IMG/VR virus record: IMGVR_UViG_3300020200_000002
Coordinates: 1 to 31,099 of that record
Length of the DNA: 31,099 nt
Direction: 5' to 3' (one strand)
Source of the DNA: a virus
Positions 1 to 25,706 of the stretch are shown here, piece after piece. The first letter of the stretch is position 1. Each line of letters begins with the position of its first letter. Below the pieces are notes generated by a model. It was not told the DNA's origin. It did not search any database and was given only the letters and a program-made list of their open reading frames with translations. The translations under genes and the position numbers were made by a program.

Positions 1-127
1 AACGCAGCATCAGTTCAGGCATCGTCTTCCACTTGCTGCCGTTTTTGTTATACCAGCCCTCGGCTTTTGCCATATCGATAGAAACCATCGGGCCTTCTAA
101 TCGCTCGCCTGCTTTGTCAACTGCCCA
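1..127. repeat. Terminal direct repeat, left copy (assembly overlap of a circular genome)
   Basis: These 127 bases are identical to 30973-31099. The repeat lies inside a recT-family reading frame that becomes a single intact gene when the two copies are merged, so it looks like the k-mer overlap left by an assembler on a circular molecule (127 is a common k) and not a biological terminal redundancy. The true unit length would be 30,972 bp. Confidence 0.95.
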
Positions 128-478
128 GGCAACGCAAGAGCGGGAATCGCTGCCCTTTTCGCCAGTCATCTCGTAACGCAAAGGCGTAAACTTGCCGCTG
201 GCATTGATGCAGGAAATTAGGAACTGACTCGACCACGCTGGTCGTCCGTGGACGATGTAAAGGTTTTGCATAACCGCCAAAGGGTTCGCCCCGATGCGGT
301 TCGCCATTTCGAGCGCAATTACCGTGTCGGCTAAGTTCTCGCGGTAAGTTTGCGGAACTATCGTGCTGCTAGTAAGCAACTTAGCCATGCGTTGAGCGGT
401 TTCAAAAGCGGCAGGAGAGCTAAACGCCCCGGCACTTTGTACGGCCAGGTTGGTGTTGGTTTCGGTTTCGAGTTTCAT
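1..478 (-). CDS. recT: RecT-family single-strand annealing protein (5' part; continues across the circle junction)
   Basis: The gene starts at the ATG at 478 and runs through base 1 into 30972-30527, giving 307 residues. RecT proteins bind single-stranded DNA and anneal it to homologous strands in phage recombination. Family-like stretches are visible here: an HGRPAWSSQF segment, and further on KAEGWYNKNGSKW and MPELMLRYRAA. The gene lies 13 bases downstream of the RecE-like exonuclease gene, the normal exonuclease-annealase pairing. No Shine-Dalgarno is visible; the leader is A/C-rich. The family assignment is firm, and a role in repair, replication or phage exchange is inferred. Confidence 0.9.
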   Translation of the reverse strand, partial: MKLETETNTNLAVQSAGAFSSPAAFETAQRMAKLLTSSTIVPQTYRENLADTVIALEMANRIGANPLAVMQNLYIVHGRPAWSSQFLISCINASGKFTPLRYEMTGEKGSDSRSCVAWAVDKAGERLEGPMVSIDMAKAEGWYNKNGSKWKTMPELMLR

Positions 479-491
479 GTTATTTTTCGGG

Positions 492-1316
492 TTATTCTGC
501 TTCAACGTATTTGGGTAAATTTAGCTGCTTAACTTCCTCGCCGTAGGCCGGCCAATGATCCTCGGCTAGGCAACGCGCAAACAAAGCCAGCGTGCGGCTC
601 ATGTCGGCGCGGCCTTTAGATAAAAACTCAGGAGAACAATTAAAAACGTTGACTGCGTGCGGCGGCTTTTGCTCGACGGCAACAAATCTGAACTCGCTGC
701 GCTCCTCGCCAGACAGGGCGTTATACAAGGCCAGATACAAAGCCGCCTGAATGTGAAACGCAGAATTGTAAGCCGTTCTTGCAAACTCACGCTCGCTTGC
801 GTCGTGGGTTGTTTTTAGATCGCACAAATAATTTTTTGCCGTCGGCACAAAATCCATGCGGCAACGCACGTCAACGGCGTTGCTGGTGTCGTACCCCACG
901 CACGAAACCTCGGCTTTGCCGTTACTGAAAAGAACGCCCGCCTCCGTGTGTTTTGCCACGGCTAAAGCCATTCCCATCAGCCCGTTGTATTGATCGGCGG
1001 AAACAACTGTTTTGCCTTCTTCTACCTGTTTAGCCCGCCACTCCTTACAAACGGTGGCGTTGTAGTTCCACGGTTTGCCCGCAGCATATTCGGCTGGCGG
1101 CACAACTAAATTGGGCAGCGGTTTTTCTGGTTCGAGGATTAGGGCGTGAGCAAGCGTCCCCAAACGCATCGCGTCGGTTTCTTCTCGCTCGCCGTCCAAA
1201 TCGGCTTTCAAGTGTGCCGGGGTAGATTGCCAAAGCTTTCGCAGCCTTGACGCGCTTGCGCCGGGAAGCGCGTGATATTCCGCTGCTGATAGGTTTGAGT
1301 AGATGCCTGGTTTCAT
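492..1316 (-). CDS. RecE-like exonuclease, PD-(D/E)XK fold
   Basis: A 274-residue protein starting MKPGIYSN. It resembles the C-terminal nuclease domain of exonuclease VIII (RecE; DUF3799/PDDEXK type), which resects one strand of a double-strand end to load the annealase. Visible motifs are GTLAHALI (53-60, with H57), an acidic E136 in a KAEVS strand, D155 in RMDF, the D166-L-K168 core (CDLKTT) and a following Q190/Y194 helix. The partner recT lies directly downstream. The frame is open to 1421, but the extra 35 residues are Gly/Arg low complexity and the family begins at the ATG at 1316, so I use that start. The leader is CAACAA-rich with no Shine-Dalgarno. Confidence 0.88.
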   Translation of the reverse strand: MKPGIYSNLSAAEYHALPGASASRLRKLWQSTPAHLKADLDGEREETDAMRLGTLAHALILEPEKPLPNLVVPPAEYAAGKPWNYNATVCKEWRAKQVEEGKTVVSADQYNGLMGMALAVAKHTEAGVLFSNGKAEVSCVGYDTSNAVDVRCRMDFVPTAKNYLCDLKTTHDASEREFARTAYNSAFHIQAALYLALYNALSGEERSEFRFVAVEQKPPHAVNVFNCSPEFLSKGRADMSRTLALFARCLAEDHWPAYGEEVKQLNLPKYVEAE

Positions 1317-1332
1317 TTGTCTTTGTTGTTGG

Positions 1333-1449
1333 TTAATCCGCCTGCCGCCTCCGCGACCACTGCCCCACCCGCCCCAAGCCGGGTCGCCAGCCGTTGCGGA
1401 CGGCCCGATCAATCTTGGCAACGATTTTGCGAAGCTGTTTGCGGGTCAT
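1333..1449 (-). CDS. Small basic protein, 38 residues, unknown function
   Basis: A short ATG-to-TAA frame (MTRKQLRKIVAKID...) fits neatly between the upstream 99-residue gene (stop at 1458) and the exonuclease start (1316). Without it this tightly packed operon would have a gap of about 140 bases. The product is strongly basic (R/K-rich), ends in an arginine cluster and has no recognisable domain. It overlaps the rejected N-terminal extension of the exonuclease frame. Spacing is the only positive evidence; a non-coding leader is the alternative. Confidence 0.45.
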   Translation of the reverse strand: MTRKQLRKIVAKIDRAVRNGWRPGLGRVGQWSRRRQAD

Positions 1450-1457
1450 GTCTCTAA

Positions 1458-1757
1458 TCAGTTTCGATCTGATTCGTTCACTATTTGGATTTGCGTGCTA
1501 CTCAGCACATCTTTCAGCGCAAGCGCGAGTTCGTGTCCAAAGATCTCAGCGTTTAATGGGCTCACTATTTGGATTTGCGTGCTACTCAGCACATCTCTCA
1601 GCGCAAGCGCGAGTTCATGTCCAAAGTTCTCAGCGTTTGATGGGCTGAATGTCGTGCTATGCCTGACTGCATCTGCCAGCACCAGGATGGCTGCGGCAGT
1701 GTCATTGCATCCGGTCTTGTCTTTTACTTCTATGTATTCTTCCACTGTTAGGTTCAT
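1458..1757 (-). CDS. Hypothetical protein with a tandemly duplicated 28-residue segment
   Basis: A 99-residue protein starting MNLTVEEYIEV. After an N-terminal part of about 38 residues it consists of two nearly identical 28-residue units (NAE-FGHELALAL-DVLSSTQIQIV), encoded by an 84-bp tandem DNA repeat at 1478-1561 and 1562-1645. The repeats look helical. No catalytic or metal-binding motif is visible and I do not recognise the family. It sits in the early operon between the HTH/sigma-4 fusion gene and the exonuclease gene. Confidence 0.7.
   Translation of the reverse strand: MNLTVEEYIEVKDKTGCNDTAAAILVLADAVRHSTTFSPSNAENFGHELALALRDVLSSTQIQIVSPLNAEIFGHELALALKDVLSSTQIQIVNESDRN
1478..1645. repeat. 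84-bp tandem direct repeat (two copies)
   Basis: Copy one is 1478-1561 and copy two 1562-1645, with only a few substitutions between them. The unit is a multiple of three and sits in frame inside the 99-residue gene, so it duplicates 28 residues. The near identity points to a recent duplication or to continuing expansion and contraction. Confidence 0.9.
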
Positions 1758-1777
1758 GGTGTGTAGCTAGGTTGGGG

Positions 1778-2365
1778 TCATAAAAGACCCTCCGCACCGG
1801 CCACTACCGGGCGGAGTATTGGCAACTGTTTCGCTGCCGCACGTCTCAGCTTGTGCAGGGCTTGCCATTCAATTTGGCGTGCTCTGTCTTTGCACACGCT
1901 AAATCTGTCTCCACATTGCTCTAGCGTTTTAGGCTCGCCTGTAAGTCCAAAGCGCATTTCGATTACGTTGCGCTCCCGATCAGTGAGTATTGACATCGCA
2001 GCAAGCACCGTATCTTCGGCTTCGGTGCTTTCTGGCAGAGCAAGCTGGTCGTAATATGTTTGTGCCGCCGCAAGTTCGAGAGCCGTCACATCCTTCGTTT
2101 GCTCTATCGTTATCCGCTTTGGAAGCCCTCGAAAGGTTTCCGGCCATTCTTGCGTCGGGTCGAAGTAGATGCCGTGTTCCCCAAGCACGCGCTGGATTGT
2201 GTTAGCCTCTTTCTCGGTTGGCCGCTGTTGCAGGTTAATGATTTTTCCGATAGTGGTCGGGCGCATACCGCATTGCCGGGCGAGTTCCGATTGCGTCCAC
2301 TCTAGTTGTTTGAGCACCGCCCACAGTGAGCCGTGCTTAAATTTCGTGATTGCTGTAATTTTCAT
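1778..2365 (-). CDS. Transcription regulator: XRE-type HTH fused to sigma-70 region 4
   Basis: A 195-residue protein starting MKITAITKF. Residues 12-64 look like an XRE/Cro-type helix-turn-helix (WTQSELARQCGM...TIGKIIN). Residues 127-174 (LTDRERNVIEMRFGL ... ARQIEWQALHKLR) match region 4 of housekeeping sigma-70, which contacts the -35 element and the beta-flap of RNA polymerase. Regions 2 and 3 are absent, so it cannot act as a full sigma factor. An activator or co-sigma that bridges polymerase to a phage operator is the natural inference. The last residues, LRPVVAGAEGLL, are encoded by a terminator-like hairpin. The frame opens slightly earlier (2386), but those residues overlap the upstream gene's terminator, so the ATG at 2365 is preferred. 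Confidence 0.8.
   Translation of the reverse strand: MKITAITKFKHGSLWAVLKQLEWTQSELARQCGMRPTTIGKIINLQQRPTEKEANTIQRVLGEHGIYFDPTQEWPETFRGLPKRITIEQTKDVTALELAAAQTYYDQLALPESTEAEDTVLAAMSILTDRERNVIEMRFGLTGEPKTLEQCGDRFSVCKDRARQIEWQALHKLRRAAAKQLPILRPVVAGAEGLL
1781..1816 (-). terminator. Intrinsic terminator-like hairpin after the HTH/sigma-4 gene
   Basis: On the minus strand a GC-rich stem (CTCCGC-CCGG pairing with CCGG-GCGGAG, one bulged base) closes a six-base loop and is followed by a short T-rich run, TCTTTTA. It is a near-exact copy (one mismatch in about 28 bases) of the hairpin at 2370-2405. It overlaps the 3' end of the upstream coding sequence and encodes its last residues. Confidence 0.6.
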
Positions 2366-2366
2366 G

Positions 2367-2741
2367 TCATAAAAAAGGCTCCGCACCGGCCATTACCGGG
2401 CGGAGTTTTGGCGGCTGTTTCCATACAGCGACATCGCTGTCGCTGGACGCATTATGCGCAACCGTCAAAGTCTCTGGGCCACAATCAGGGCAGAGCGTGT
2501 AGCTAACCCGGCAAGCCACCGGCAGGGCTATTTCGCTTTCTTGTCGCCATTGGCGATCTATGCAGCGAATCCGTCGGCAGCGCGGGCATTGCGTGGCCAT
2601 CAAATCTGCCAGCGTCGGGTTGGTGATCCGTCCGCGCTCAATCCCGCATTGCTGGTCGGTCACGCCATCGGCGCGTAACCACAAAAAGAACAGCGTCAGC
2701 AGAAGCCCGCCGATGAGTGCGATTAAGGTTTGGTCGCTCAT
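2367..2741 (-). CDS. Small membrane-anchored protein with zinc-ribbon cysteines
   Basis: A 124-residue protein. Residues 6-22 (LIALIGGLLLTLFFLWL) form one N-terminal transmembrane helix. The rest carries two cysteine pairs, CPRC near residue 52 and CPDC near residue 84, with further cysteines between, suggesting a zinc ribbon. Its ATG overlaps the stop of the VRR-NUC gene (ATGA). Function is not recognised; a membrane-tethered DNA- or protein-binding factor is possible. The C-terminal LRPVMAGAEPFL is encoded by the terminator-like hairpin. Confidence 0.7.
   Translation of the reverse strand: MSDQTLIALIGGLLLTLFFLWLRADGVTDQQCGIERGRITNPTLADLMATQCPRCRRIRCIDRQWRQESEIALPVACRVSYTLCPDCGPETLTVAHNASSDSDVAVWKQPPKLRPVMAGAEPFL
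2370..2405 (-). terminator. Intrinsic terminator-like hairpin before the HTH/sigma-4 gene
   Basis: On the minus strand a stem CTCCGC-CCGG / CCGG-GCGGAG is followed by CCTTTTTT, a classical hairpin plus T-tract. It is embedded in the last codons of the upstream gene and ends five bases before the ATG of the HTH/sigma-4 gene, so it could attenuate transcription into the regulator. Its duplicate lies at 1781-1816. Confidence 0.65.
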
Positions 2742-3151
2742 GTTTTCTTGGGTTCTTTAACAATGGGCGCAAGAGCTAAAACGGCTTCCGAAATTGAGTG
2801 AACTACCGCGACCACCGCCCCCGCGAGTTGACAACGTAAAAGTTCGCCTGCCTGCTCTCGCGTCTCTTTTTTGCCTGGTCGTTTAACTTCCAAAGCGAAA
2901 GGCTTGCCCAAAATCCAGCCAGTGAAATCAGGCGTTCCGGCGCGGCACGTTGTTGGCTTGTCCATTCGATGCCACACGAAATAGCAATCAAGCCCTAGCC
3001 CGTTGAGGTACGCCGCGATTGCCTCTTGAATGACCGCCTCGCGCAGCGTTGTAGCCTTGCGACTGCTTTGCCGAGCTTGTTGCGTTGAAGCTTTAGCTTC
3101 TCGCCGTCGCGCTTCATACGCCTCAAGCTCAAATTGGGAAAACCTAACCAT
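2738..3151 (-). CDS. VRR-NUC domain nuclease (PD-(D/E)XK superfamily)
   Basis: A 137-residue protein. The VRR-NUC signature is clear: a helical E near residue 38-43, GTPDF with D75, then a strand with the E88-x-K90 core (FALEVKRPGK) and a following REQ helix. Such stand-alone proteins in phages act as structure-specific or Holliday-junction-type endonucleases in recombination and repair. The gene sits directly after SSB. A TTG at 3163 overlapping the SSB stop is an alternative start; I prefer the ATG at 3151. Confidence 0.85.
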   Translation of the reverse strand: MVRFSQFELEAYEARRREAKASTQQARQSSRKATTLREAVIQEAIAAYLNGLGLDCYFVWHRMDKPTTCRAGTPDFTGWILGKPFALEVKRPGKKETREQAGELLRCQLAGAVVAVVHSISEAVLALAPIVKEPKKT

Positions 3152-4672: not shown

Positions 4673-4903
4673 TCAACGGCCACCCCCTTGCGCTTGGTAT
4701 TGCGCGAGTAAGCTGGGCAAATGAAACCGAACCGACCTGCCAAAATTTACTCCTTTAATTATGCCCGCAGCGTTGAGTTGCTGGACGTAGTTTTTAGACA
4801 ATCGCAGCGCGGTAGCGGCATCGTCTATCGTTCCGAGGGCAACCCCGTTCGCCACATCGGGCGCAAGGGTAGGCCACTCGCGGAATTTTCTTGGCTTGCT
4901 CAC
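4673..4903 (-). CDS. Excisionase-like helix-turn-helix protein
   Basis: A 76-residue protein. The segment GTIDDAATALRLSKNYVQQLNAAGIIKGVNFGRSVRFHLPSLLAQY matches the MerR/excisionase (HTH_17) pattern: recognition helix, G-rich turn, and a wing strand ending in a hydrophobic helix. I chose the GTG at 4903, which overlaps the stop of the SleB-like gene (GTGA); an ATG at 4960 would overlap that gene by 60 bases. The position two genes after the early promoter fits an Xis or early regulator, but direct evidence for excision is absent. Confidence 0.75.
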   Translation of the reverse strand: MSKPRKFREWPTLAPDVANGVALGTIDDAATALRLSKNYVQQLNAAGIIKGVNFGRSVRFHLPSLLAQYQAQGGGR

Positions 4904-5328
4904 AATTTGAAAAACAAGTGACCGCCGACAACCGCCACAGGAGTTTTCCCCTTTGACCAATACGGCGAGACAGACTTGGTATGGTAGTGATTGGCCAGCC
5001 CAACCGTGGCGACGGCAGCGGGCTTGCTCGCCAGATCAAGTGCTGACTTCCACGCCGTGCTTGTCTTTGCGCGGGCGACAAGCTGCTCAGGCGTTGTTTG
5101 GTTCAGGCATGAAAATTGCTTTTTGGCGGTTACAACTTGCCACTCGGTCTGCCTTCTCTCCACGGCGCGAACCTGTACTACCTCACGCACAGCTCGCATG
5201 CCAGCAACACCATCCCCTGCGGCCTCGGCCACCAGCACGGCGGCGACTAGCTCTTGACTCGTCGGCTGCGCGGCGTGCGTTGACAAAGCAGCCAGTGTTA
5301 TTAGCAATGAGTTAAGGTAAGCGTTCAT
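4900..5328 (-). CDS. Secreted SleB-like cell wall hydrolase
   Basis: A 142-residue protein with an N-terminal signal peptide (MNAYLNSLLITLAALSTHAA, likely cleaved near residue 20). The rest matches the SleB/Hydrolase_2 family, which cleaves peptidoglycan: E35 in VLVAEAAGDG, KKQFSCL (69-75), ANHYHT (112-117), SPYW (121-124) and GGHLFFK (135-141). Its start overlaps the stop of the RHH gene (ATGA), placing it second in the early operon and far from the other lysis genes. It could be the endolysin, exported by Sec, or a wall-modifying product made during lysogeny or early infection. The family is clear, the timing is inferred. Confidence 0.88.
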   Translation of the reverse strand: MNAYLNSLLITLAALSTHAAQPTSQELVAAVLVAEAAGDGVAGMRAVREVVQVRAVERRQTEWQVVTAKKQFSCLNQTTPEQLVARAKTSTAWKSALDLASKPAAVATVGLANHYHTKSVSPYWSKGKTPVAVVGGHLFFKL

Positions 5329-5486
5329 TTGGGAGTCATTGCCGACTTTTCCTCAGTCCAATCTGAAACCATCTGGCTCATCGATTTGCCAGCCGCCATT
5401 GCCAGCGCGTAAAGCTTCCGCTTTAGCTCAAGGGGGATGACGAGGTTTAGTTTGCGCGGGTTTTTGTGAATTTTCGGTCTAGCCAT
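5325..5486 (-). CDS. Ribbon-helix-helix DNA-binding protein (minus side of the switch)
   Basis: A 53-residue protein, MARPKIHKNPRKLNLVIP then a helical LKRKLYALAMAAGKSMSQMVSDW. The strand (KLNLVIP) followed by two helices with a GKSMSQMV turn is the RHH (Arc/CopG) fold, which acts as a dimer. It is the first gene of the long minus-strand early transcript and lies divergently from a second RHH gene at 5564. Its -10 (TTTAAT, 5493-5498) ends seven bases before the A of the ATG, predicting a leaderless mRNA. It could be a Cro-like or CI-like regulator; which cannot be told from sequence. Confidence 0.82.
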   Translation of the reverse strand: MARPKIHKNPRKLNLVIPLELKRKLYALAMAAGKSMSQMVSDWTEEKSAMTPK

Positions 5487-5492
5487 GCGCCC

Positions 5493-5521
5493 ATTAAACG
5501 CGCATTAAATGCTATCGTCAA
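5493..5521 (-). promoter_or_regulatory. Early promoter, minus strand
   Basis: TTGACG (5516-5521), 17-base spacer, TTTAAT (5493-5498), each five of six matches to sigma-70 consensus. The predicted start site falls on or beside the ATG at 5486. It would drive the RHH, SleB-like and excisionase-like genes and probably the whole early operon. Confidence 0.7.
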
Positions 5522-5528
5522 ACATTAT

Positions 5529-5557
5529 TTGACACCAAATAGTTTTTGGCGCATTAA
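5529..5557 (+). promoter_or_regulatory. Promoter of the plus-strand RHH gene
   Basis: TTGACA (5529-5534), 17-base spacer, then a weak -10, CATTAA (5552-5557), six bases before the ATG at 5564. The -35 is perfect but the -10 is poor, so it may need activation or be weaker than its divergent partner. Confidence 0.5.
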
Positions 5558-5563
5558 ATAGGT

Positions 5564-5866
5564 ATGGGTAGACCTAAAGAGAAAAACGCCGTGCGCCTGC
5601 ATCTGTCGGTGGACGCCAAAACCTATGAGCGGTTGTCGACTTTGGCGGCGGCGTATGGCAGCAGCAAAAGCCGTGTCATAGACATTCTCGCAACCAAGGC
5701 GGCGGCGCGGATCAGTTCCACTTTACCGCCTGCCGAGTTAGTTGCCGCCCCGCTTGTCGAGGCCGCGCTGTCAAAGCGCGTGAGGAAACCTCAAGCTGAC
5801 GCACCCAGCGGCGAAGCTTCTGTGCCAGCCAAAGCCGGTCAAAAGGCGAAAGCCGTCCGGCGATGA
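5564..5866 (+). CDS. Ribbon-helix-helix DNA-binding protein (repressor candidate)
   Basis: A 100-residue protein. Residues 1-45 (MGRPKEKNAVRLHLSVDAKTYERL...) form a strand plus two helices with a YGSSKSRVID turn, the RHH fold. The remaining 55 residues are Ala/Pro/Lys-rich and probably disordered. It is transcribed toward attP and the integrase, like a lysogeny-maintenance gene, and faces the minus-strand RHH gene across shared operators. I infer it is the repressor half of the switch, but the roles could be reversed. The 3' part overlaps a convergent open frame (5712-5915). Confidence 0.82.
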   Translation: MGRPKEKNAVRLHLSVDAKTYERLSTLAAAYGSSKSRVIDILATKAAARISSTLPPAELVAAPLVEAALSKRVRKPQADAPSGEASVPAKAGQKAKAVRR

Positions 5867-5915
5867 CTTCTAATTCAGGTTCAAGCGTTACACGTTTGCG
5901 AGGTTGTTTGTTCAT
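5712..5915 (-). CDS. Possible small protein antisense to the RHH repressor gene
   Basis: A 67-residue frame starting MNKQPRKRVTLEPELEV, with a central amphipathic segment RLSPFDRLWLAQKLRRWVRQLEVSS that looks like real protein and not chance translation. It overlaps the 3' 155 bases of the RHH gene tail to tail. The RHH C-terminus is low complexity there, so the constraint could lie on this strand. No promoter is obvious. The alternative is a chance frame. Confidence 0.35.
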   Translation of the reverse strand: MNKQPRKRVTLEPELEVIAGRLSPFDRLWLAQKLRRWVRQLEVSSRALTARPRQAGRQLTRQAVKWN

Positions 5916-5969
5916 CGTCACATCGTGCTGCAATAGCACGGACAAATGCTGTCTTAGCACCTAGAATTG

Positions 5970-6000
5970 ACTGCCAACAAAACTGCCAACAAGCTTGCCA
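5970..6000. repeat. Integrase arm-type sites, P arm
   Basis: Two copies of ACTGCCAACAA at 5970-5980 and 5982-5992, followed directly by GCTTGCCA. The same composite, in the same orientation, recurs on the other side of the core at 6213-6241. These are the expected binding sites for the N-terminal arm-binding domain of a lambda-type integrase. Confidence 0.75.
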
Positions 6001-6035
6001 GCATTGAGAAACCCTAGGAAAAACAGCACATTTGA

Positions 6036-6085
6036 TTACCTTGACACGGTAGGGGTCGCAGGTTCGAACCCTGCACCGCGCACCA
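6036..6085 (+). tRNA. tRNA-Val(GAC) 3' half: attachment-site core, not a functional tRNA
   Basis: The anticodon stem (TTACC/GGTAG) encloses the loop TTGACAC with anticodon GAC at 6043-6045. It is followed by variable loop GGGTC, a T-arm (GCAGG-TTCGAAC-CCTGC), acceptor 3' strand ACCGCGC, discriminator A and an encoded CCA at 6083-6085. The D-arm and 5' acceptor strand are missing. On integration the fragment would rebuild the 3' end of the host tRNA-Val gene, so the host target can be named. Confidence 0.9.
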
Positions 6086-6212
6086 TCCTTTTCTTCCAAT
6101 GAAACCCCCGAAATGCTTGGTTTTTGACGTGTTTTTGGCGATTTCTTCGAGCGATCTGTTTTGCCCAAAACCCCACCTTAACCCATGTCAACCCTTGGAG
6201 TTTAGGAAAAAA

Positions 6213-6241
6213 ACTGCCAACAAACTGCCAACAGGCTTGCC
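6213..6241. repeat. Integrase arm-type sites, P' arm, abutting the integrase start
   Basis: ACTGCCAACAA at 6213-6223 and ACTGCCAACAG at 6224-6234, then GCTTGCC. The repeat ends three bases before the integrase ATG at 6245, so integrase bound here could also block its own expression. Confidence 0.75.
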
Positions 6242-6244
6242 CAA

Positions 6245-7372
6245 ATGACCACTCGGAAAGTAATGATTCGCGGCGAGGTTCGCTGGATGGTTCAGTTTTG
6301 CCACGGCAAAATTCGTCGTCGTTTCTTTTTCCGGTCAAAAGCCTTGGCGGATCTTAAACTTAGTCAACTTAGGCAAGACCGCGAAGCGTTTGGTCGGGGT
6401 TGGGTTGACCTAGAATCTAGCGAGCGGGCGATGGTGTGCGAGATTTTGAACGAGGCCAAGGCCAAGGGCGTGTCCCTGCGTGACGTTTGGACAGCTTACA
6501 AGGCTGGCAAGGTCGCGAACGTCGCGGGCAGCGTCACGGTGTCGGAGGCTTTGAAACAACTTGTCGCCGCCAAACGCGCTCGCAACTTGCGGGAAAACTA
6601 CGTGGCGCACTTGGATCGCACCGTCCGCCAGTTTGCGGTTGGCAAAATGGAAATGCGCGTTGACCAGTTCACCGTTGACGACGTAAGGGCTTACGTCGGC
6701 GGCGTGGCAACTCCTGGCGGTCAAGCTACTAGGCGAGGTCGGTTGCTGGCCTTCTTTGGGTTTTGCCAAGGCCGCGATTGGTTGGTGGTGAATCCCATGC
6801 TGAAGATTGAGCGGCCCAAGATTGACCGCGAGCGACCTGAGTTTTTGCCGGTTGAAACTTGCCGCAGGCTGGTGGATTGCTTTTGCCCTCGCTCACTTGG
6901 CTGGCTGGCTCTGGCTTTGTTCGCCGGCATTCGCCCGCAAGAGGCCGCGCAGGTTAGCTGGCAACAAATCGACCTTGAAGGCGGAACGGTCAACCTAGAC
7001 GCAGCCACACATAAGACCCGCAAGCCGCACACGGTCACGTTGACGCCAAGCGCAAAAGCGTGGCTCGGTCACGCAAGGAAACTGGGAGCAGAATTGCCAG
7101 TGGCAAAAACCTCTTTGCGCCGGGACATGAGGCAAGCCCGCGATGCAATGCAGTGGGATTGTTGGTCAAAGGACGTGTTGCGCCACACGTTTTGCACGTA
7201 CGGCGTGGCAAAATTTGGGCAGGCTTGGACGGCAAGGGAGGCGGATCACAGCGAATCGGTCTTGCGTCGGCATTATGCCAATCAAGCAAAGGCCAGCGAT
7301 GCCGAGGCGTTTTTTAGACTGCTGCCGCCTAGCAAAAACGTCAGTCTGTCTTCCCCCGATTTAACGCGGTAA
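6245..7372 (+). CDS. int: Tyrosine recombinase integrase
   Basis: A 375-residue protein that integrates and excises the phage at tRNA-Val. It has an N-terminal arm-binding region (1-90), a core-binding SAM-like domain (about 96-180) and a catalytic domain. Catalytic residues read as R230 (ALFAGIRPQEAAQVSW), K257 (THKTRK), R313-H314 (LRHTFCTYG; the usual second His/Arg pair), H335 (EADHSES) and the nucleophile Y344 (LRRHYAN). The start is 160 bases after the att core. The tail (363-375) is short and polar. Complete and probably active. Confidence 0.95.
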   Translation: MTTRKVMIRGEVRWMVQFCHGKIRRRFFFRSKALADLKLSQLRQDREAFGRGWVDLESSERAMVCEILNEAKAKGVSLRDVWTAYKAGKVANVAGSVTVSEALKQLVAAKRARNLRENYVAHLDRTVRQFAVGKMEMRVDQFTVDDVRAYVGGVATPGGQATRRGRLLAFFGFCQGRDWLVVNPMLKIERPKIDRERPEFLPVETCRRLVDCFCPRSLGWLALALFAGIRPQEAAQVSWQQIDLEGGTVNLDAATHKTRKPHTVTLTPSAKAWLGHARKLGAELPVAKTSLRRDMRQARDAMQWDCWSKDVLRHTFCTYGVAKFGQAWTAREADHSESVLRRHYANQAKASDAEAFFRLLPPSKNVSLSSPDLTR

Positions 7373-7390
7373 AAGGTGGGAAGAATCGCG

Positions 7391-7579
7391 CTAGTGCGTC
7401 GCCTCAAAGGTCGCGTTGTGCTGGGCTGCCAGCAAGCGAATCGAGGTTGCCACATCGCGCAAAAAGGCGTCTCGCGCTTGGCCGTTACGTTTCCATTCGA
7501 CGGTCATAAACTCAGTCATTCGCTCAGTTTCGCCGCGCTCCGCATCGGCCCAGCCAGTCAGTTGAATGGTGATTTTCAT
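7391..7579 (-). CDS. Small hypothetical protein, end of the late transcript
   Basis: A 62-residue protein, MKITIQLTGWADAERGETERM..., convergent with the integrase gene 18 bases away. It has an N-terminal beta strand and a C-terminal helix, with no recognised domain. It is the last minus-strand gene before the integration module. The A-rich leader (GGGAGA-less on the coding strand) gives no Shine-Dalgarno. Confidence 0.55.
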   Translation of the reverse strand: MKITIQLTGWADAERGETERMTEFMTVEWKRNGQARDAFLRDVATSIRLLAAQHNATFEATH

Positions 7580-7644
7580 TTGAAAAAGGGAGATGAAGTT
7601 GCCGCAAGAAAAGCGTCGCGCAACTTAAATTTGCCAATGCAGAA

Positions 7645-7887
7645 CTATTGCTTGACCTCCGCAAAATAGGCCACCTGCCGGACGCTCACAGAGTTGGCAC
7701 GGCGAACTTTCTGCATCCGCATCAGGCCATATTTTACCGCCCGCTTGCACAGCACAAAGGCGGTGCAACGCGAGCGGTTCCAAACCTTTGCCCATTCTTC
7801 GGCATTCTTAAACCCGGCTGGCACTGGCTCTTCGAGTTTTTGCAGGGAGGCTTGCTGAATTCGCTCTAAGAGTTCGTTCGCTTTCAT
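7645..7887 (-). CDS. Small winged-helix-like DNA-binding protein
   Basis: An 80-residue protein, MKANELLERIQQA..., with VPAGFKNAEEWAKVWNRSRCTAFVLCKRAVKYGLMRMQKVR, which reads as helix, turn (WAKVWNRSRCTAF), recognition helix and wing. The ATG at 7887 overlaps the stop of the metallophosphoesterase gene (ATGA) and is preferred over an upstream ATG at 7902. The target is unknown. A regulator at the distal end of the late operon is the simplest reading. Confidence 0.7.
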   Translation of the reverse strand: MKANELLERIQQASLQKLEEPVPAGFKNAEEWAKVWNRSRCTAFVLCKRAVKYGLMRMQKVRRANSVSVRQVAYFAEVKQ

Positions 7888-8624
7888 AGCGGCAAAATCC
7901 ATTCGGCTTGATTGGCTGGCTGTTCATGCAGCCAAAGCACGCTTTGACCGCAGGTCTTGCTCTCGTGGTAAAAGCCCCACACGAAGCCCTGACTCCACGC
8001 CAAGGTTGACCGTCTAGTCTTGGCGTACTCAAGTGCGCCTTTTTTAGTTAGCGTGCCGACACAGTAACCGGTTGGGCAATCGACACGACGCCCTTTCATT
8101 GCTCCGACCTTGTGCGTGTGCGCGAAGATCACGTTGCCATACATCTCGGCCATGTCTCGCGGGCTGTTCTCGTTGTAGATCGTCCCGTGGGTGAGCGTAA
8201 CATTGCCGATTTGCCGCTGTTGGAAGACGCCATCATACGGCACAAGCTCGGCTCGCAGCTTGTGGCACGTCGTTCCGATCTGCTTCACAATGTCGTAAGC
8301 GGCATGGGCAATGATGGCGTTGGGCGAATGCTGCAATCGCCAGAGCCGATCCTCGTGGTTGCCGCAAAAAACCAGCGTCGGCTTTAACTTTTCAAGAAAG
8401 TCTAGCCCGCCGTCCACGTCAGGCTGCGGAGCTTCGGCCTGCACCTGCAAGTTGGCCGACGCCATAAAGCAGGAGAGGTCGGTGAAATCGCCCAGATGAA
8501 CGCACGCATCCGGTTTGTATGCTTCACGAAATTTCAGCACCGCAGCGATGGCTTTAGGATCAGCATAGAGGCCATGCGAACAGCCAACGGCCAGCAGCTT
8601 TTTCCATTTTTTGCCCACGTTCAT
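7884..8624 (-). CDS. Metallophosphoesterase (calcineurin-like)
   Basis: A 246-residue phosphoesterase. Metal-binding motifs in order are GCSHG (14-18), LGDFTD (44-49), CGNHEDR (87-93), a TLTHGT His and AHTHK near the centre of the second half. The usual first-motif aspartate (DxH) is a cysteine here (C-S-H), though I recall related phage proteins with the same GCSHG, so it may be a family trait. Substrate unknown: nucleic acid 3'/5' phosphates or a phosphodiester are typical. Its ATG overlaps the stop of the small lipoprotein gene (ATGA). Confidence 0.85.
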   Translation of the reverse strand: MNVGKKWKKLLAVGCSHGLYADPKAIAAVLKFREAYKPDACVHLGDFTDLSCFMASANLQVQAEAPQPDVDGGLDFLEKLKPTLVFCGNHEDRLWRLQHSPNAIIAHAAYDIVKQIGTTCHKLRAELVPYDGVFQQRQIGNVTLTHGTIYNENSPRDMAEMYGNVIFAHTHKVGAMKGRRVDCPTGYCVGTLTKKGALEYAKTRRSTLAWSQGFVWGFYHESKTCGQSVLWLHEQPANQAEWILPL

Positions 8625-8731
8625 CGCGCAACGGGTGGAACCGGCAGCTTAAGGTGGTCGGTGGATTTACAGCCAGCACTCGCGCAGAGATACGCCGCGA
8701 GCAAGAGCGTCGGCCACATTGCAAGTTTCAT
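8621..8731 (-). CDS. Tiny lipoprotein, Rz1-like outer-membrane spanin candidate
   Basis: A 36-residue frame with a signal sequence and lipobox (LLLAAYLCASAGC, lipidated Cys at 21) and a short proline-containing mature tail (KLPVPPVAR), like the Rz1 outer-membrane subunit of the spanin complex. Its first 65 bases overlap the 3' end of the upstream gene in another frame, and its stop overlaps the next ATG (ATGA), as small Rz1 genes often do. The presumed Rz partner is one gene upstream (9167-9448). It implies a Gram-negative-type envelope. Confidence 0.65.
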   Translation of the reverse strand: MKLAMWPTLLLAAYLCASAGCKSTDHLKLPVPPVAR

Positions 8732-9170
8732 AATTGGAGTAATTTAGTTGTGATTCGACAAAGACATAGCGGTGCGGTTGTCCATTTTTCGTGACCGCTA
8801 GAATCGCGTTACGGTGTGCGCCATCACGCACGCCACATAAAGAAACGCCGTTGGGTATCAGCACGGAAGATTCCAACGCAGCGGCTCCCACGTCCTCGTC
8901 GCCGTACAGTCGCCGGGTGGACAGGATAAGCTCGGCCACGAATCGCTTGTTGATCTCCTCGCAGTTCCGGCGCAGCGAGTTGTTGGTCAAGGGCTGCTCT
9001 GGCAAGGTGTTCAAGGTGCGTTTTACCTCGCCCCAATACGGCCAAAACTCATCGCGCAACCACGCTTCGTCGTAGACGTGAACGACTGGCGCAGTCGCGA
9101 GGTCTTGCAGGCGACAGTCCGGCGCGATAATGGCCAGTCCAAGCTGGAATTCTAGCCACGTGATTTTCAC
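8667..9170 (-). CDS. Putative cysteine-peptidase-like protein of the lysis region
   Basis: A 167-residue protein. It contains NCEEINKRFVAEL (Cys near 69), then a later DGAHRNAIL (His near 119) and FVESQ (Glu near 138). The order Cys, His, Glu resembles a small family of phage proteins with a papain/transglutaminase-like arrangement, but I cannot confirm catalysis. PVVHVYD near residue 28 is shared with the early protein at 3929-4267. A GTG at 9170 overlaps the stop of the upstream spanin-like gene (GTGA). An accessory lytic or host-modifying enzyme is possible. Confidence 0.6.
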   Translation of the reverse strand: MKITWLEFQLGLAIIAPDCRLQDLATAPVVHVYDEAWLRDEFWPYWGEVKRTLNTLPEQPLTNNSLRRNCEEINKRFVAELILSTRRLYGDEDVGAAALESSVLIPNGVSLCGVRDGAHRNAILAVTKNGQPHRYVFVESQLNYSNYETCNVADALARGVSLRECWL

Positions 9171-9448
9171 AGTGATCGCCTTTCATCCTCGCAGCGAGTC
9201 AAGGCAACGTCGCAACGCGCAAAGGCTTCGGTGTTGCGGGCTAAAGCCTTGTCGAGCTTTTCGGAACACTCCTTAAAATTCACATCGTGCGCGGCGGCGA
9301 TCTCTTTCAGTGCCGCTAGGCGTTGTGCGCTTTCCTCGAAATACTCGCGCCGCTGCAAACGTATCTCGCGCAGGAAATAAACCGTGGTGATTATGACCGC
9401 TGCCGCCGCGACGTTGCTGCTCAAGAGTTGCTCGATTACCTTTTCCAT
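9167..9448 (-). CDS. Rz-like inner-membrane spanin candidate (TM plus coiled coil)
   Basis: A 93-residue protein with one N-terminal transmembrane helix (about 12-27, NVAAAAVIITTVYFL) and a charged, heptad-like periplasmic segment (LQRREYFEESAQRLAALKEIAAAHD...). This is the architecture of an i-spanin, which fuses inner and outer membranes with an o-spanin lipoprotein. An XhlA-type membrane protein is the alternative. It lies between a lipoprotein gene and the peptidase-like gene. Confidence 0.6.
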   Translation of the reverse strand: MEKVIEQLLSSNVAAAAVIITTVYFLREIRLQRREYFEESAQRLAALKEIAAAHDVNFKECSEKLDKALARNTEAFARCDVALTRCEDERRSL

Positions 9449-9451
9449 AAA

Positions 9452-10057
9452 TCAGGGTCGCCAATGAGCAGCCGTGCGTGCCGTTGCCAATCGCAACGCA
9501 AAAGCCTCCTCCTGAATCACGTTCCATTCGGCGGTCTGCTTGGCGGCTTCGCGCACTCGGCTTACCGTGACCCAAACCTCGCGGGCTAGATCAATCACAA
9601 CTGGAACCACGGCCACCCACGACCCGGTGGACTGCGTTTGGCTCGCGTTAGCCTCGGCCACCAGAGCGTCAACGGCTGAAGCCTTGCCCGAGCCTGCGGT
9701 TGAGGCGGGAGCCCACACGCGAATCTCGGCCACCAATGCCTCGGCCACGGCTAGGGCGGTCATCAGGCTGGCGCGGTTCTCTGCCGTGCGGTTTACCTTG
9801 TAAGCGAGGCGCAGGCGGTTGGCCGTCTCAAACGCTGCCAGGGCTTTGGCTCGCATCTGTGCCGCAACGTGGCGCACTTCTTTGGGCAAATCAGCGCGGC
9901 GTCGAAGCTCAAACGCGAGGAACGAATCAACCGAGCCCAAGCCAACCGACAGGATTTGCTCGGCACGAATTACGGCGGACGTTTCGCCGGGTTGCGTGTG
10001 TAGGCATCCGCACAACGCGAGGACGCTGGCCAGCAAGGTAAGCAAGAGACGGCTCAT
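9452..10057 (-). CDS. Lipoprotein, helical, unknown function
   Basis: A 201-residue protein with a lipoprotein signal peptide (MSRLLLTLLASVLALCGC; lipidated Cys probably at 18). The mature part is Ala/Arg-rich and predicted helical, with several long amphipathic stretches. It lies between the holin-like gene and the spanin-like gene, overlapping the former. It could be a second lipoprotein of the lysis system or a surface lipoprotein that excludes other phages. I do not recognise the family. Confidence 0.7.
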   Translation of the reverse strand: MSRLLLTLLASVLALCGCLHTQPGETSAVIRAEQILSVGLGSVDSFLAFELRRRADLPKEVRHVAAQMRAKALAAFETANRLRLAYKVNRTAENRASLMTALAVAEALVAEIRVWAPASTAGSGKASAVDALVAEANASQTQSTGSWVAVVPVVIDLAREVWVTVSRVREAAKQTAEWNVIQEEAFALRLATARTAAHWRP

Positions 10058-10287
10058 GATGGTGGTTGGCTTAAAGGTTGCGAACGATTGGAGATTGATT
10101 GGTCAATGTAAGCCCGAACCGCTGTGATCCCTGCAATCGCGCTGGCAATGCCGGTTCTCGCCCATTGCATCGTTGACCAATCGCTGAGTTGGGTGACGTT
10201 TTCGGTCTGCGCCAAAAAAGCCGTGCCAGTAGCGATCCAGAAGTAGCACTGAGCGCGGAGGTCGAGGATGAGGGCGAAGCGGTTCAT
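10054..10287 (-). CDS. Holin-like small membrane protein
   Basis: A 77-residue protein starting MNRFALILDLRAQ with two hydrophobic stretches, about 14-26 (YFWIATGTAFLAQ) and about 45-60 (ARTGIASAIAGITAV), and a polar tail. Size, topology and position at the head of the lysis genes fit a holin. Hydrophobicity is modest, so this is tentative. The ATG overlaps the last base of the upstream gene's stop; the open frame extends upstream but only through that gene. Confidence 0.55.
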   Translation of the reverse strand: MNRFALILDLRAQCYFWIATGTAFLAQTENVTQLSDWSTMQWARTGIASAIAGITAVRAYIDQSISNRSQPLSQPPS

Positions 10288-10940: not shown

Positions 10941-13900
10941 TTAGTTGGTGACTTCGGTATAATCCAAGGTTAAGGCCCACGCGATGTTGGTTGCCGCCTC
11001 GCCGGTTACACGGGCGCGAACAGCTCCGTTGGTTGTGTCAGCGTCGAGGGCGAAGCCCCAATCAAAAGTGGGAATTGGGTTGATCTGCAATTCGTCGCCG
11101 GACGAGACGGTGATGGTTGCAGCCGACGCGCCACGCTCAGCTTTGCCGACAAAATGCAGGGCTTGGTTTTGTGCGGCTAAATTTGCTGTATAAATTTGCC
11201 CACCAAGCGTCACCGCTACAAGTTTGGTTCCGCTCGACGAAGAGGCAACACCTATCCAGGTGTTGCTTGCAGCCGTCGTAAAGCTCCAAGTCACCCCAGA
11301 ATCTGTCGAGGTCAAAATCCCGCCATTATGCCCCACCGCTACAAGTTTGGTTCCGTCTTCCGACGAAGCAACGCCGTGCCAAGTGTTAGTTATTGATCGC
11401 GCTGTCCAGTTTACCCCCGAATCTGTCGAGGTGTAAATTTGCCCCGCATACACAACAGCCACCAGTTTCGTTCCGTCCGCCGACGAAGCAACGCCAAGCC
11501 AGTTTTGGTTGCTTTCTCGCGGCGTCCAAGTCACGCCAGAATCCGTCGAGGTGTAGATTTGGCCGTTTGGCACCACCGCGACAATCTTTGTGCCGTCCGC
11601 TGACGAAGCGACACGATACCAAATGCGGTTGCTTTCTCGCGCCGTCCAAGTCACGCCAGAATCCGTCGAGGTGTAGATTTGGTCGTTTTCCGCCACCGCC
11701 ACAAGCTTTGTACCATCCGACGACGAGGCGACGGAACGCCAAGCGCGGTTGCTTTCTCGCGGCGTCCAAGTCACGCCAGAATCCGTCGAGGTGTAGATTT
11801 GACCACCCCAATCTGTTGCCACCATTTTTGTGCCGTCCGAAGACGAAGCCGCACTAGTCCAATTTCGGTTGCTGTCTCGCGCCGTCCAAGTCACGCCAGA
11901 ATCCGTCGAGGTGTAAATCTGGCCGGATAACACCACTGCCACAAGTTTCGTGCCGTCTGACGACGAGGCAACGCCTTGCCATTGACGGTTGCTTTCTCGC
12001 GCTGTCCACGTTCCCACTCCGTCTGATCGCGCTACCAACCGGCCAGCAAACGTCCACGCGCTTTGGTTTGGCAAGGTCGCTCGCCCGCCCGCGCTGGTAA
12101 GCATCTCCGTTTGCGTTGCGTCGGTGGTGTTGGCAACCAGCCGAATGCTGGTGCTTTGCAGCCCAAGGTTGTCACGCGCTGTCGCTGCGTTTGCCAGATC
12201 GGAGAGGTTGTTTGCCGCTTGGAGAAAATACGCATCAGCGCGAGTTGCTGCCGTGCCAAGGCCAAGCGTGGTTCGTTGCGCGGCGGCGTCAGCATCGTCA
12301 AGTAAAGCTTTGCCTGCGGCGGTTAGATCAAAAGTTGCCGCCGTGCCGCTGCCGGTAAACTCAATGCCTTTGTTGGCTGCACTGGTTAGCCCTGCCAGCG
12401 CGGTCAATTCTGAGTCGAGCGGCTGCTTGGCGGCTAAATCACTGGTGAGGTTGGTGATTTGCGACTGGGCCAAAGTCAGCGGATCACTGCCGCCGCTGGC
12501 GTGCGAAGCAGCGTGCGCGGCGTGGTCGGCAGAACAACAAGTATTTGCAATGTAAATTTGCCCTAAACCGTCTACCGCAATGAGTTTGTTTCCGCTGGAA
12601 GACGAGGCGATGTGAAACCAGTTGCGAATGCCCGCGCTTATCTGCTCCGTCCAAGTCGCTCCCGAATTTGTCGAAGTATAGATTGCGCCACCAAATAATG
12701 CAGCGCACAGTCTTGTTCCGTTTGCCGACGATGCAACTGTGACGCGAGAGCCAATCGGAATTTGATTTGGCACTCGCGCCGTCCAGGTTACCCCCGAATC
12801 TGTCGAAGTGTAAATCTGGCCCAAAACTCCCTCGTCTTGTCCCGCAGTAGCCGCTATAAGCTTGGTTCCGTCAGCAGATGAGGCAACAGAAATCCATGGT
12901 CGATCAGCATCTGTTATTCGTGCTGTCCAGGTCACGCCTGAATCCGTCGAAGTGTAAATCTTGCCGTCACCCACCACTGCCACAAGCCGTGAGCCGTCTG
13001 ACGACGAGGCGACACCTATCCAAAGCCGTGAGCTTTCTCTTTCCGTCCAAGTCACCCCCGAATCTGTCGAGGTGTAAATTTGGCCTGCATACACCACCGC
13101 GCAAAGCTTCGAGCCGTCCGCTGACGAAGCAACGGCACTCCACTGGCGGTTGCTTTCTCTCGCCGTCCACGTCACGCCCGAGTCTGTTGAGGTGTGGATT
13201 TGCTCCCCATAAGTCAATGCAACTATTTTTGAACCGTCCGAAGACGAAGCAATTTCCTTCCAAACGCGGTTTTGTTCTCGCGCTGTCCAAGTTACGCCCG
13301 AATCTGTCGAAGTGTAAATCTGGCCGTTTTGTACTGCGGCAACAAGTTTCGTGCCGTCAGACGAAGATGCAACCGCCACCCAGTTCCGGTTGCTGTCGCG
13401 GGCTGTCCACGATAAATCAATTACCTCCCCATCGCCCGCTGCGTCAACGTGTTCGTAACCACTCTCGTCGGCTTTCACGGCCAAAAGCTTGCCGCTTGCG
13501 CCTGTCAAACTTAGTCCTGCCAGCGAGGTCAATTCTGCGTCGAGCGGTTGCTTGGTCGCCAATAGACCGAGAAGCAGGCTTTCGTCAACATCTTCGGGCA
13601 AGCTGGCTTCCGTGGTCAAAACCTCGTTGCTGATGGTAATTGGAGCTTGGAAAGTGAACTGCTCCTCGCCTGCGCCTTGGATTAACTCAACCTCAAAGGT
13701 CTGGCTGATTTCGTCGCCCGTGGCGGCATCAAGCGCAGCCACCATTTGCTCGGTGAAGATGTTAAGAACTCCTTCAAAGCAGTAGTCGTCGCTATTCCAA
13801 GTCAGCGATTGCGCGGCCAAAATATCCCCGCCGGGATCGCCAATGCCGACGCGACAAGAGTAGCCTTCTAGCTCCTCAATCTCCGCTGGCGATCCCAACC

Positions 13901-14060
13901 CGCCGTTAGGCGTGGGCGAGAGAAAGAAAATTCTTAGCGACAACTTCGATTCCCTAAATCCCTTCGGCAGTTGGTAGGACGATAGGTTTTTCTCTGACTG
14001 AACAAAAGCCCCGGTCTGAGTGGAGGGGCGAAGATTGATGTAAAGGTCGCGTGAGGCCAT
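10941..14060 (-). CDS. Tail fibre / receptor-binding protein with two seven-repeat beta-propellers
   Basis: A 1039-residue protein. Residues 1-215 form a virion-attachment region ending in a KQPLDAELTSLAGL-type fibre segment. Residues 216-507 hold seven repeats of about 40 residues (core W..VASSSDGTKLVAV...GQIYTSTDSGVTW), of BNR/sortilin type, enough for one closed seven-bladed propeller. Residues 525-683 are a fibre linker (AKQPLDSELTALAGL, QRTTLGLGTAAT). Residues 684-961 hold a second set of seven repeats. Residues 962-1039 form a C-terminal beta domain. The protein presumably binds the cell surface at the tail tip. Confidence 0.9.
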   Translation of the reverse strand: MASRDLYINLRPSTQTGAFVQSEKNLSSYQLPKGFRESKLSLRIFFLSPTPNGGLGSPAEIEELEGYSCRVGIGDPGGDILAAQSLTWNSDDYCFEGVLNIFTEQMVAALDAATGDEISQTFEVELIQGAGEEQFTFQAPITISNEVLTTEASLPEDVDESLLLGLLATKQPLDAELTSLAGLSLTGASGKLLAVKADESGYEHVDAAGDGEVIDLSWTARDSNRNWVAVASSSDGTKLVAAVQNGQIYTSTDSGVTWTAREQNRVWKEIASSSDGSKIVALTYGEQIHTSTDSGVTWTARESNRQWSAVASSADGSKLCAVVYAGQIYTSTDSGVTWTERESSRLWIGVASSSDGSRLVAVVGDGKIYTSTDSGVTWTARITDADRPWISVASSADGTKLIAATAGQDEGVLGQIYTSTDSGVTWTARVPNQIPIGSRVTVASSANGTRLCAALFGGAIYTSTNSGATWTEQISAGIRNWFHIASSSSGNKLIAVDGLGQIYIANTCCSADHAAHAASHASGGSDPLTLAQSQITNLTSDLAAKQPLDSELTALAGLTSAANKGIEFTGSGTAATFDLTAAGKALLDDADAAAQRTTLGLGTAATRADAYFLQAANNLSDLANAATARDNLGLQSTSIRLVANTTDATQTEMLTSAGGRATLPNQSAWTFAGRLVARSDGVGTWTARESNRQWQGVASSSDGTKLVAVVLSGQIYTSTDSGVTWTARDSNRNWTSAASSSDGTKMVATDWGGQIYTSTDSGVTWTPRESNRAWRSVASSSDGTKLVAVAENDQIYTSTDSGVTWTARESNRIWYRVASSADGTKIVAVVPNGQIYTSTDSGVTWTPRESNQNWLGVASSADGTKLVAVVYAGQIYTSTDSGVNWTARSITNTWHGVASSEDGTKLVAVGHNGGILTSTDSGVTWSFTTAASNTWIGVASSSSGTKLVAVTLGGQIYTANLAAQNQALHFVGKAERGASAATITVSSGDELQINPIPTFDWGFALDADTTNGAVRARVTGEAATNIAWALTLDYTEVTN
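11178..12011. repeat. Tandem 120-bp DNA repeats, second propeller (seven units)
   Basis: Seven direct repeats of about 120 bp encode blades of the fibre's second propeller. The segment around the TCTGTCGAGGTGTA-type core is almost unchanged from unit to unit. They are protein-coding and unlike CRISPR in length and lack of spacers. Confidence 0.9.
12540..13415. repeat. Tandem 120-bp DNA repeats, first propeller (seven units)
   Basis: Seven direct repeats encode the first propeller. They are more diverged than those at 11178-12011; units five and six carry insertions. Similarity between the two blocks permits intragenic recombination. Confidence 0.9.
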
Positions 14061-24989: not shown

Positions 24990-25298
24990 ATGAAAACGAA
25001 CACGAAACCAAACATGGAATGGACAAGAAACCTTTACGAAGTCGGCGCGCCGATACGCGACGCCGCTCAGCTACATCTTTGCCGAGCTTGGGCTCAGCGG
25101 ATTGCCTATAGCATCGCGGATGCTGACAAGGCACTGTCCGCCGCGCAGTCGCTCTACGCCGAACAAATGGCGGCTATCAAAGCAGACGCCGCCCGGCTTG
25201 AGTCAGTCGTCGCCGGCCTTTGGACTAGGGAAGAAATCGCATCGGCGAAGCGCGGATTTATGCTTGTTGATGGAAAGGAGATTGCGCTTTGCCGCTAG
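24990..25298 (+). CDS. Helical hypothetical protein of the plus-strand cassette
   Basis: A 102-residue protein (MKTNTKPNMEWTRNLYEVG...). Residues 25-80 are Ala-rich and helical, possibly a coiled coil (IADADKALSAAQSLYAEQM). No motif recognised. It is the first gene of a three-gene set transcribed against the surrounding head genes, behind its own promoter and palindrome. The leader AACTAACTAAAAC has no Shine-Dalgarno near the ATG. Confidence 0.65.
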   Translation: MKTNTKPNMEWTRNLYEVGAPIRDAAQLHLCRAWAQRIAYSIADADKALSAAQSLYAEQMAAIKADAARLESVVAGLWTREEIASAKRGFMLVDGKEIALCR

Positions 25299-25379
25299 TT
25301 TCTGACCCGCCACCCTGCGCCCGACGCAAGCCGGACGCAGCAGGCGGGGCAAATGCCCGCAAAAACAAAAACCAAAAAC

Positions 25380-25706
25380 ATGAACACACACACACACACA
25401 CCCGGCCCGTGGCTGGCAAACAACGACGGCCTCGTCTGGTCGGATCACACCTCGCTCGGCAAGCAAAACGTCATCGGCGCATTTACGCCAGCGGACGCCG
25501 CGCTTATCGCCAGCGCACCGGAACTGCTTGCCAGTTTGCAGGAGCTATTGGCTCACCTTGCCGGTTGGACTAACGCCGGACTCCTCGCCAGTCAAACTAA
25601 TAAGGCCACGCGACTGGCTTCGGAGTTCGGAGCGCAGCACAAACTAATTCCAGCAGCCAAAGCCGCCCGCGCTGCTATCGCCAAGGCGAAAGGAGGCGCG
25701 AAGTGA
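25380..25706 (+). CDS. Phage protein with THTPGPW start, second cassette gene
   Basis: A 108-residue protein beginning MNTHTHTPGPWLANNDG, with GAFTPADAALIASAPELLASLQELL. This HTPGPW...LIAxAPELLxxL pattern marks a small family frequent in phages, with unknown role. The first codons lie in an (AC)9 tract (25384-25401). I prefer the ATG at 25380 to an earlier one at 25353. The stop overlaps the next start (GTGA). Confidence 0.75.
   Translation: MNTHTHTPGPWLANNDGLVWSDHTSLGKQNVIGAFTPADAALIASAPELLASLQELLAHLAGWTNAGLLASQTNKATRLASEFGAQHKLIPAAKAARAAIAKAKGGAK
25384..25401. repeat. (AC)9 dinucleotide tract in the start region of a gene
   Basis: Nine AC units immediately after the ATG of the second cassette gene. 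Change by one unit would shift the reading frame, so slippage could switch the gene off. In bacteria such tracts are often phase-variable; here that is unproven. Confidence 0.9.

Follow-up and report, generated by a model that had tools for sequence, protein, structure and literature searches.

Do the two opposing ribbon-helix-helix (RHH) genes beside this phage integrase form its lysis-lysogeny switch? The window, meaning the whole stretch of DNA analysed, is an IMG/VR virus record of 31,099 bases with a 127-bp terminal direct repeat, so the genome was assembled as a circle of about 30,972 bp. A sequence-only reading had proposed a lysis-lysogeny switch built from two divergent RHH genes, encoding 53 and 100 residues with similar MxRPK N-termini, and these open reading frames and the 77 bp between them are confirmed. 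Taken as a whole, the evidence is quite probably best explained by positions 5279-5793 being an immunity region in which RHH100 acts as repressor against a Cro-like RHH53. The features are:

4673-4960, minus strand: HTH_17 protein of the early operon, a possible excisionase (Pfam HTH_17, 4.1e-5)
4900-5328, minus strand: SleB-type cell-wall hydrolase (Pfam Hydrolase_2, 4.8e-10); its start codon overlaps the RHH53 stop
5325-5486, minus strand: RHH53 (partner B), a 53-aa Arc-like RHH protein, ORF MARPK..., first in the leftward operon
5487-5563: the 77-bp divergent control region between RHH53 and RHH100
5564-5866, plus strand: RHH100 (partner A), 100 aa, ORF MGRPK..., upstream of attP and the integrase and in the same direction
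5712-5915, minus strand: a conserved convergent gene, tail-to-tail with RHH100 and overlapping its 3' end by 155 nt
6035-6085, plus strand: attP core, the 3' half of tRNA-Val(GAC), matching intact tRNA-Val genes of Verrucomicrobiota MAGs exactly
6245-7372, plus strand: tyrosine integrase (PHROG 1, E 1.1e-24; Pfam Phage_integrase)

Two opposing genes for putative DNA-binding proteins lie over a short control region beside an integrase and attachment site. The leftward genes after RHH53 are the hydrolase, the HTH_17 protein, a winged-HTH protein, SSB, and a RecE-like nuclease, and a RecT fragment lies at the opposite end of the circular genome. The leftward RHH53 side would be lytic and the RHH100/integrase side lysogenic. 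The attP sits between RHH100, which ends at 5866, and the integrase, which starts at 6245. Both genes are co-oriented, so integration would part the integrase from the repressor promoter. One tRNA-Val locus, L021, was discarded as a relative because it carries the integrase of another element.

The gene content of the window has further peculiarities. A SleB-type hydrolase would not be expected in second place in an operon presumed to be early, and it is coupled to RHH53. A 1,039-aa protein at 10941-14060 (minus strand) contains many YTSTDSGVTWTxR repeats and differs in length and repeats from its counterpart in the related phage L004 by blastn. Three small rightward genes at 24990-26035 (plus strand) lie between terminase and portal, opposite to the direction of the structural genes, and the two of them that were scanned have no family match.

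The assignment of both proteins to the RHH superfamily draws on profiles, homologues, and structural models. RHH100 matches Pfam RHH_1 weakly and under cut-off (E 0.007), and RHH53 matches RHH_5, also under cut-off, and the PHROG "Arc-like repressor" family at E 0.05-0.1. In a per-genome search with RHH_1, RHH100 is the only match in the window (E 2.2e-4) and RHH53 has none; in L004, both divergent genes match. A PDB sequence search returned no match to either protein. Homologues in the same slot of relatives score above the RHH cut-offs, with RHH_1 for partner A of L076 (8.1e-6) and L096 (4.5e-5) and with RHH_3 for that of L069 (4.7e-8).

AlphaFold models of RHH53 and RHH100 are both two-helix, with helices at residues 19-32 and 36-50 in one model and at residues 18-31 and 35-53 in the other. 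The RHH100 model has a pLDDT of 86-95 across residues 11-50 and comprises an RHH domain of approximately residues 1-53 followed by a low-confidence tail. The best Foldseek match to the RHH53 model is Arc (probability 0.98, rmsd 0.8 A), while the RHH100 model returns the RHH proteins MatP, ParG, and CopG. Matches to both models are mostly RHH proteins, with E-values that are poor because the chains are so short. As modelled, both proteins have the strand-helix-helix fold. Elsewhere, the viral contig L003 (positions 1-3000) carries a run of small RHH-like genes, roughly six or seven spread over the two strands, and two of these genes resemble RHH53.

Comparison with L004 (32,309 bp) delimits the region. 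The flanks are 93-99% identical, including positions 4893-5279 and 5793-10287, and just the segment 5279-5793 is replaced in L004 by unrelated DNA. The substituted DNA codes for an RHH-like domain with a GTG start, in frame with the hydrolase, and for a divergent 119-aa RHH-like protein. At about 7183-6610 of L004 (minus strand), the RHH domain reads into the SleB-type hydrolase with no stop between them. The gap between the L004 genes holds the dyads GTTACGTGTA-TT-TACACGTAAC (P=0.0005) and GCGTATATACGC, which differ from those of the window. Heteroimmune phages differ by such an exchange of the region, and the comparison points to an immunity region that two otherwise similar phages have swapped whole.

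The convergent gene, overlooked by the sequence-only reading, links this locus to a wider set of relatives. It has no convincing Pfam or PHROG family match in the scanned copies. Homologues occur in a 40.6-kb viral contig (L069, 996-1244) and in a Limisphaerales MAG (L071, 1363-1719), and both adjoin a divergent RHH pair. Further homologues occur in 23 of the 320 genomes from the order of that MAG (Verrucomicrobiota; loci within L074-L100). A sample of 388 genomes from the phylum gave two matches, of which one had been found before and the other is weak and interrupted by a stop codon.

With the convergent gene as probe, the adjoining repressor was typed as HTH or RHH. Ten of the 12 assigned HTH slots hold an XRE-HTH protein with an HTH_3 E-value below 2e-5 (L074, L075, L077, L078, L080, L086, L087, L089, L098, and L100). 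The other two are L091, which scores more weakly, and L082, which was assigned by eye and whose partner weakly matches P22_Cro. Among the RHH slots, L069, L076, and L096 score above the curated cut-off and L083, L084, and L085 have weak scores; L071, L079, L093, and L095 were typed by pattern without a significant score. Four loci received no assignment (L090, L092, L094, and L099), L088 and L097 run off the ends of their contigs, and L101/L102 resemble a degenerate copy. The divergent partner is RHH-like too in most RHH loci, with weak scores, and no convincing partner B was seen in L083, L084, L093, or L096. At L096, a transposase-like ORF occupies the expected position of B (oriented 2248-2643), and that locus may therefore be disrupted. 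By these assignments, a single slot beside the convergent gene appears to hold either an HTH-type or an RHH repressor, the latter usually with a divergent RHH partner.

Relatives collected by other genes were less informative about the slot. Those found by terminase (L041, L043, and others, mostly fragments) have no integrase or RHH_1 match, and the hydrolase homologues L009-L018 have no adjoining RHH gene where the sequence allowed looking.

Between the window and L004, the first 45 codons of the convergent gene differ by 12 synonymous and 5 nonsynonymous changes, while the RHH100 frame has 1 synonymous and 9 nonsynonymous changes in its final 24 codons, which argues that constraint in the overlap acts on the opposite-strand protein. 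The junction at which homology with L004 resumes, 5793, falls within this overlap. Wherever the two genes overlap, at 23 loci of which 11 are HTH, the shared length is 2 mod 3; at L077 they do not overlap. Stop codons alone do not force this phase, because the other frames are often open for at least 50 nt (phase 0 in 14 of 24 loci, phase 1 in 8 of 24). Common descent of a dual-coded 3' end would explain the fixed phase, and we infer that modules were exchanged upstream of a repressor 3' end that was kept. An order-wide version of this proposal, in which the repressor 3' end is dual-coded and the fixed-frame overlap anchors swaps of HTH or RHH modules together with their operators and partner, is tentative and falls somewhat short of probable. 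The convergent gene may also regulate the repressor, through antisense transcription or as a small protein.

The two opposing RHH proteins resemble one another. With eight hand-picked A-B pairs, the true pairing is the best among 40,320 permutations. A version of the test without choice of partner admitted any ORF starting -100 to +260 nt from the start of A at 12 RHH loci; the own-locus score averaged 51.2 against 34.0 +/- 2.8 for permuted loci, with none of 200,000 permutations as high, although these loci are not fully independent because the cassettes of the window and L076 are related, as are those of L083 and L084. The same test on 12 HTH loci as control gave P=0.92. At L095, the best pairing is not with its own partner. 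The resemblance is consistent with a pair that arose when a single repressor was duplicated, and it suggests that A and B have related DNA specificity.

The closest relative is a prophage (L103/L076) with the order integrase, overlapping gene, A, B. Its B protein is 48% identical to RHH53 over 44 aa and scores 0.003 with RHH_5, while its A protein, the RHH_1 match at 8.1e-6, is 39% identical to RHH100 over 87 residues. The control regions are also alike: the 77-bp gap of the window and the 81-bp gap of L076 align with a score of 109 against 51.7 +/- 14.3 for shuffles (0 of 2,000 as high).

Within the 77 bp, the elements that might serve as promoters and operators are:

5492-5498, plus strand: CATTAAA copy 1, over the leftward -10 (TTTAAT)
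5502-5512: putative RHH operator, the 11-bp palindrome GCATTAAATGC, between the -35 and -10 of the leftward promoter
5503-5509, plus strand: CATTAAA copy 2, inside the palindrome
5517-5533: GTCAAA-N5-TTTGAC dyad, carrying back-to-back -35 hexamers
5552-5558, plus strand: CATTAAA copy 3, over the rightward -10 region

The CATTAAA repeats claimed for this gap begin at 5492, 5503, and 5552 and are every plus-strand copy in the 31,099 bases. Any 7-mer present three times in the gap has P=0.003 by dinucleotide shuffles, and the exact 11-mer repeat GCGCATTAAAT, at 5500 and 5549, was reached in none of 2,000 such shuffles. The inverted repeat of GTCAAA and TTTGAC with back-to-back -35 elements is likewise present as described, but it does not exceed chance, since a 6-bp dyad has P=0.34 in the gap, and it was set aside as an operator. 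By eye, the leftward promoter reads TTGACG-17-TTTAAT and the rightward promoter TTGACA followed by CATTAAAT; a strict promoter scan listed neither promoter in 5487-5563, and the -10 boxes are poor.

The palindrome, which the sequence-only reading had passed over, appears to be the better-supported candidate operator. The window contains the motif GCATNNNATGC a single time, and so do the 18 kb of L103, at the matching position and in the form GCATATTATGC. Read leftward, the window has TTGACG-ATA[GCATTTAATGC]GCG-TTTAAT and L076 has TTGAAA-CGT[GCATATTATGC]GCA-TATTGA. A GCAT-N3-ATGC palindrome occupies the same place in the lytic promoter, as here assigned, of the window and its closest relative.

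The sequence-only reading had set a separate HTH repressor against its own proposal, and one protein of this kind exists: the sole Cro/cI-type HTH gene of the window, at 1778-2386 (minus strand), joins an XRE helix-turn-helix to sigma-70 region 4. It is probably not the lysogeny repressor, because it sits within the leftward, presumed lytic operon and is unmatched in L004, which has an unrelated gene at that position and no HTH_3 match. No S24 peptidase match was found in the window phage or L004, and neither phage matches the ANT domain of a P22-type antirepressor. The presence of the XRE-HTH/sigma-4 protein nevertheless bears on a different account, in which the RHH pair is a secondary module resembling immI of P22 and runs a side function centred on the adjacent hydrolase while another repressor holds lysogeny. 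The layout is the same as that of Arc and Mnt, and RHH53 is translationally coupled to the SleB hydrolase, to which its counterpart is fused in frame in L004. The position of the XRE protein inside the leftward operon, its lack of an L004 match, and the lack of any ANT-domain match tell against this account, as do the HTH repressors in the slot of relatives and the placement of the pair next to attP and integrase, and we regard it as unlikely.

RHH domains are common among antitoxins and partition proteins, and Foldseek also returns MazE, VapB, ParG, and TacA, so RHH53 and RHH100 could be autoregulators of those types with no role in lysogeny. Beside the two genes, however, there is no toxin or ATPase family match, and a toxin-antitoxin system was rejected for lack of a neighbouring toxin family; a switch accounts better for two opposing RHH genes, for their exchange together with operators, and for the HTH repressors that occupy the slot in relatives, which leaves the autoregulator account very improbable. 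Equally improbable is a simpler arrangement with RHH100 as the only regulator, RHH53 as an accessory or degenerate gene, and CATTAAA as promoter sequence. The family score of RHH53 is indeed the weaker one (E 0.1), and CATTAAA overlaps both -10 regions. Against this, the CATTAAA copies all point one way while the promoters oppose, and must therefore be more than a pair of -10 boxes. RHH53 also has its close counterpart in L103 (48% over 44 aa), and B partners resemble their own A.

A switch of two opposing RHH proteins is thus a well-supported reading of the sequence comparisons. This part of the original proposal is borne out by the allele exchange, the equivalence of HTH and RHH in one slot, the A-B resemblance, and the gap conserved in L076. 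Two points do not hold fully, since the GTCAAA dyad is not significant and the design has precedents. The computation shows the order of the genes, the exchange of alleles, the equivalence of the slots, the likeness of A to B, a candidate operator kept in one relative, and the fixed phase, whereas DNA binding, the promoter repressed by each protein, and lysogeny itself are inferences.

In the proposed mechanism, 5279-5793 would serve a temperate Verrucomicrobiota phage, its genome assembled as a circle, as immunity region, with RHH100 (A) as the prophage repressor. Rightward transcription would express A and then run across attP into the integrase, and integration at tRNA-Val would separate the integrase from the rightward promoter. 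RHH53 (B) would head the leftward operon (hydrolase, HTH_17 gene, SSB, nucleases, and RecE/RecT) and act in a Cro-like manner. Each RHH dimer is predicted to insert its beta ribbon into GCATTAAA-type sites. Dimers bound at 5502-5512, within the leftward promoter spacer, and over the leftward -10 would turn the lytic genes off, and binding over the rightward -10 region would repress or tune A. Because A and B look like paralogues of related specificity, they would compete for the same or overlapping sites, which would yield two exclusive states.

The Arc repressor of phage P22 also has 53 residues, and its operator lies between the -35 and -10 of Pant; the putative operator GCATTAAATGC likewise lies between a promoter -35 and -10. 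Arc is the best structural match to RHH53, and both systems have two small RHH repressors. In P22 immI, Mnt represses arc-ant and Arc represses mnt (PMC11016777); together these RHH proteins control Ant, and the immI region is not essential for lysogeny (PMC8022706, PMC11016777). The suggestion that RHH against RHH is a distinct design therefore does not hold fully, given Arc/Mnt and F55 of SSV1, an RHH regulator of lysogeny. The immI region differs in being a secondary region that controls the antirepressor Ant, with the HTH repressor C2 in immC, whereas in the window the next gene is a hydrolase, attP and integrase adjoin the pair, and neither an ANT domain nor a conserved HTH repressor was found. 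F55 is a 55-aa RHH protein that keeps the lysogenic carrier state through repeated 11-nt sites at several promoters (PMC9608457); it belongs to an archaeal fusellovirus and is a single RHH regulator with no divergent pair.

Like lambdoid cI/Cro, the locus has a repressor gene diverging from a Cro-like gene over a short operator region, an integrase on the repressor side, and exchange of the entire region between related phages. It differs in having RHH-like switch proteins instead of HTH, no S24 peptidase, and opposing proteins that are closely alike. The Akkermansia phages Chambord and Chantilly are temperate phages of the same phylum whose integrases are 22-25% identical to that of the window, and their repressors are HTH/S24 proteins, unlike the RHH pair described here.

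Searches of open-licence papers turned up neither an account of RHH/RHH as a primary switch nor one of the overlapping gene. What appears to be new is that an RHH/RHH pair would serve as the primary switch, with HTH switches able to take its place beside an overlapping gene of fixed phase. RHH against RHH is an accessory module in P22 and here apparently the main lysis-lysogeny switch. Since the opposing proteins are alike, it becomes directly testable whether a two-state switch arose from a single duplicated repressor, and the overlapping gene can be used to locate immunity regions in a phylum where few phages have been studied. With HTH or RHH in one slot, these phages offer a natural case of a single circuit realised by two protein folds.
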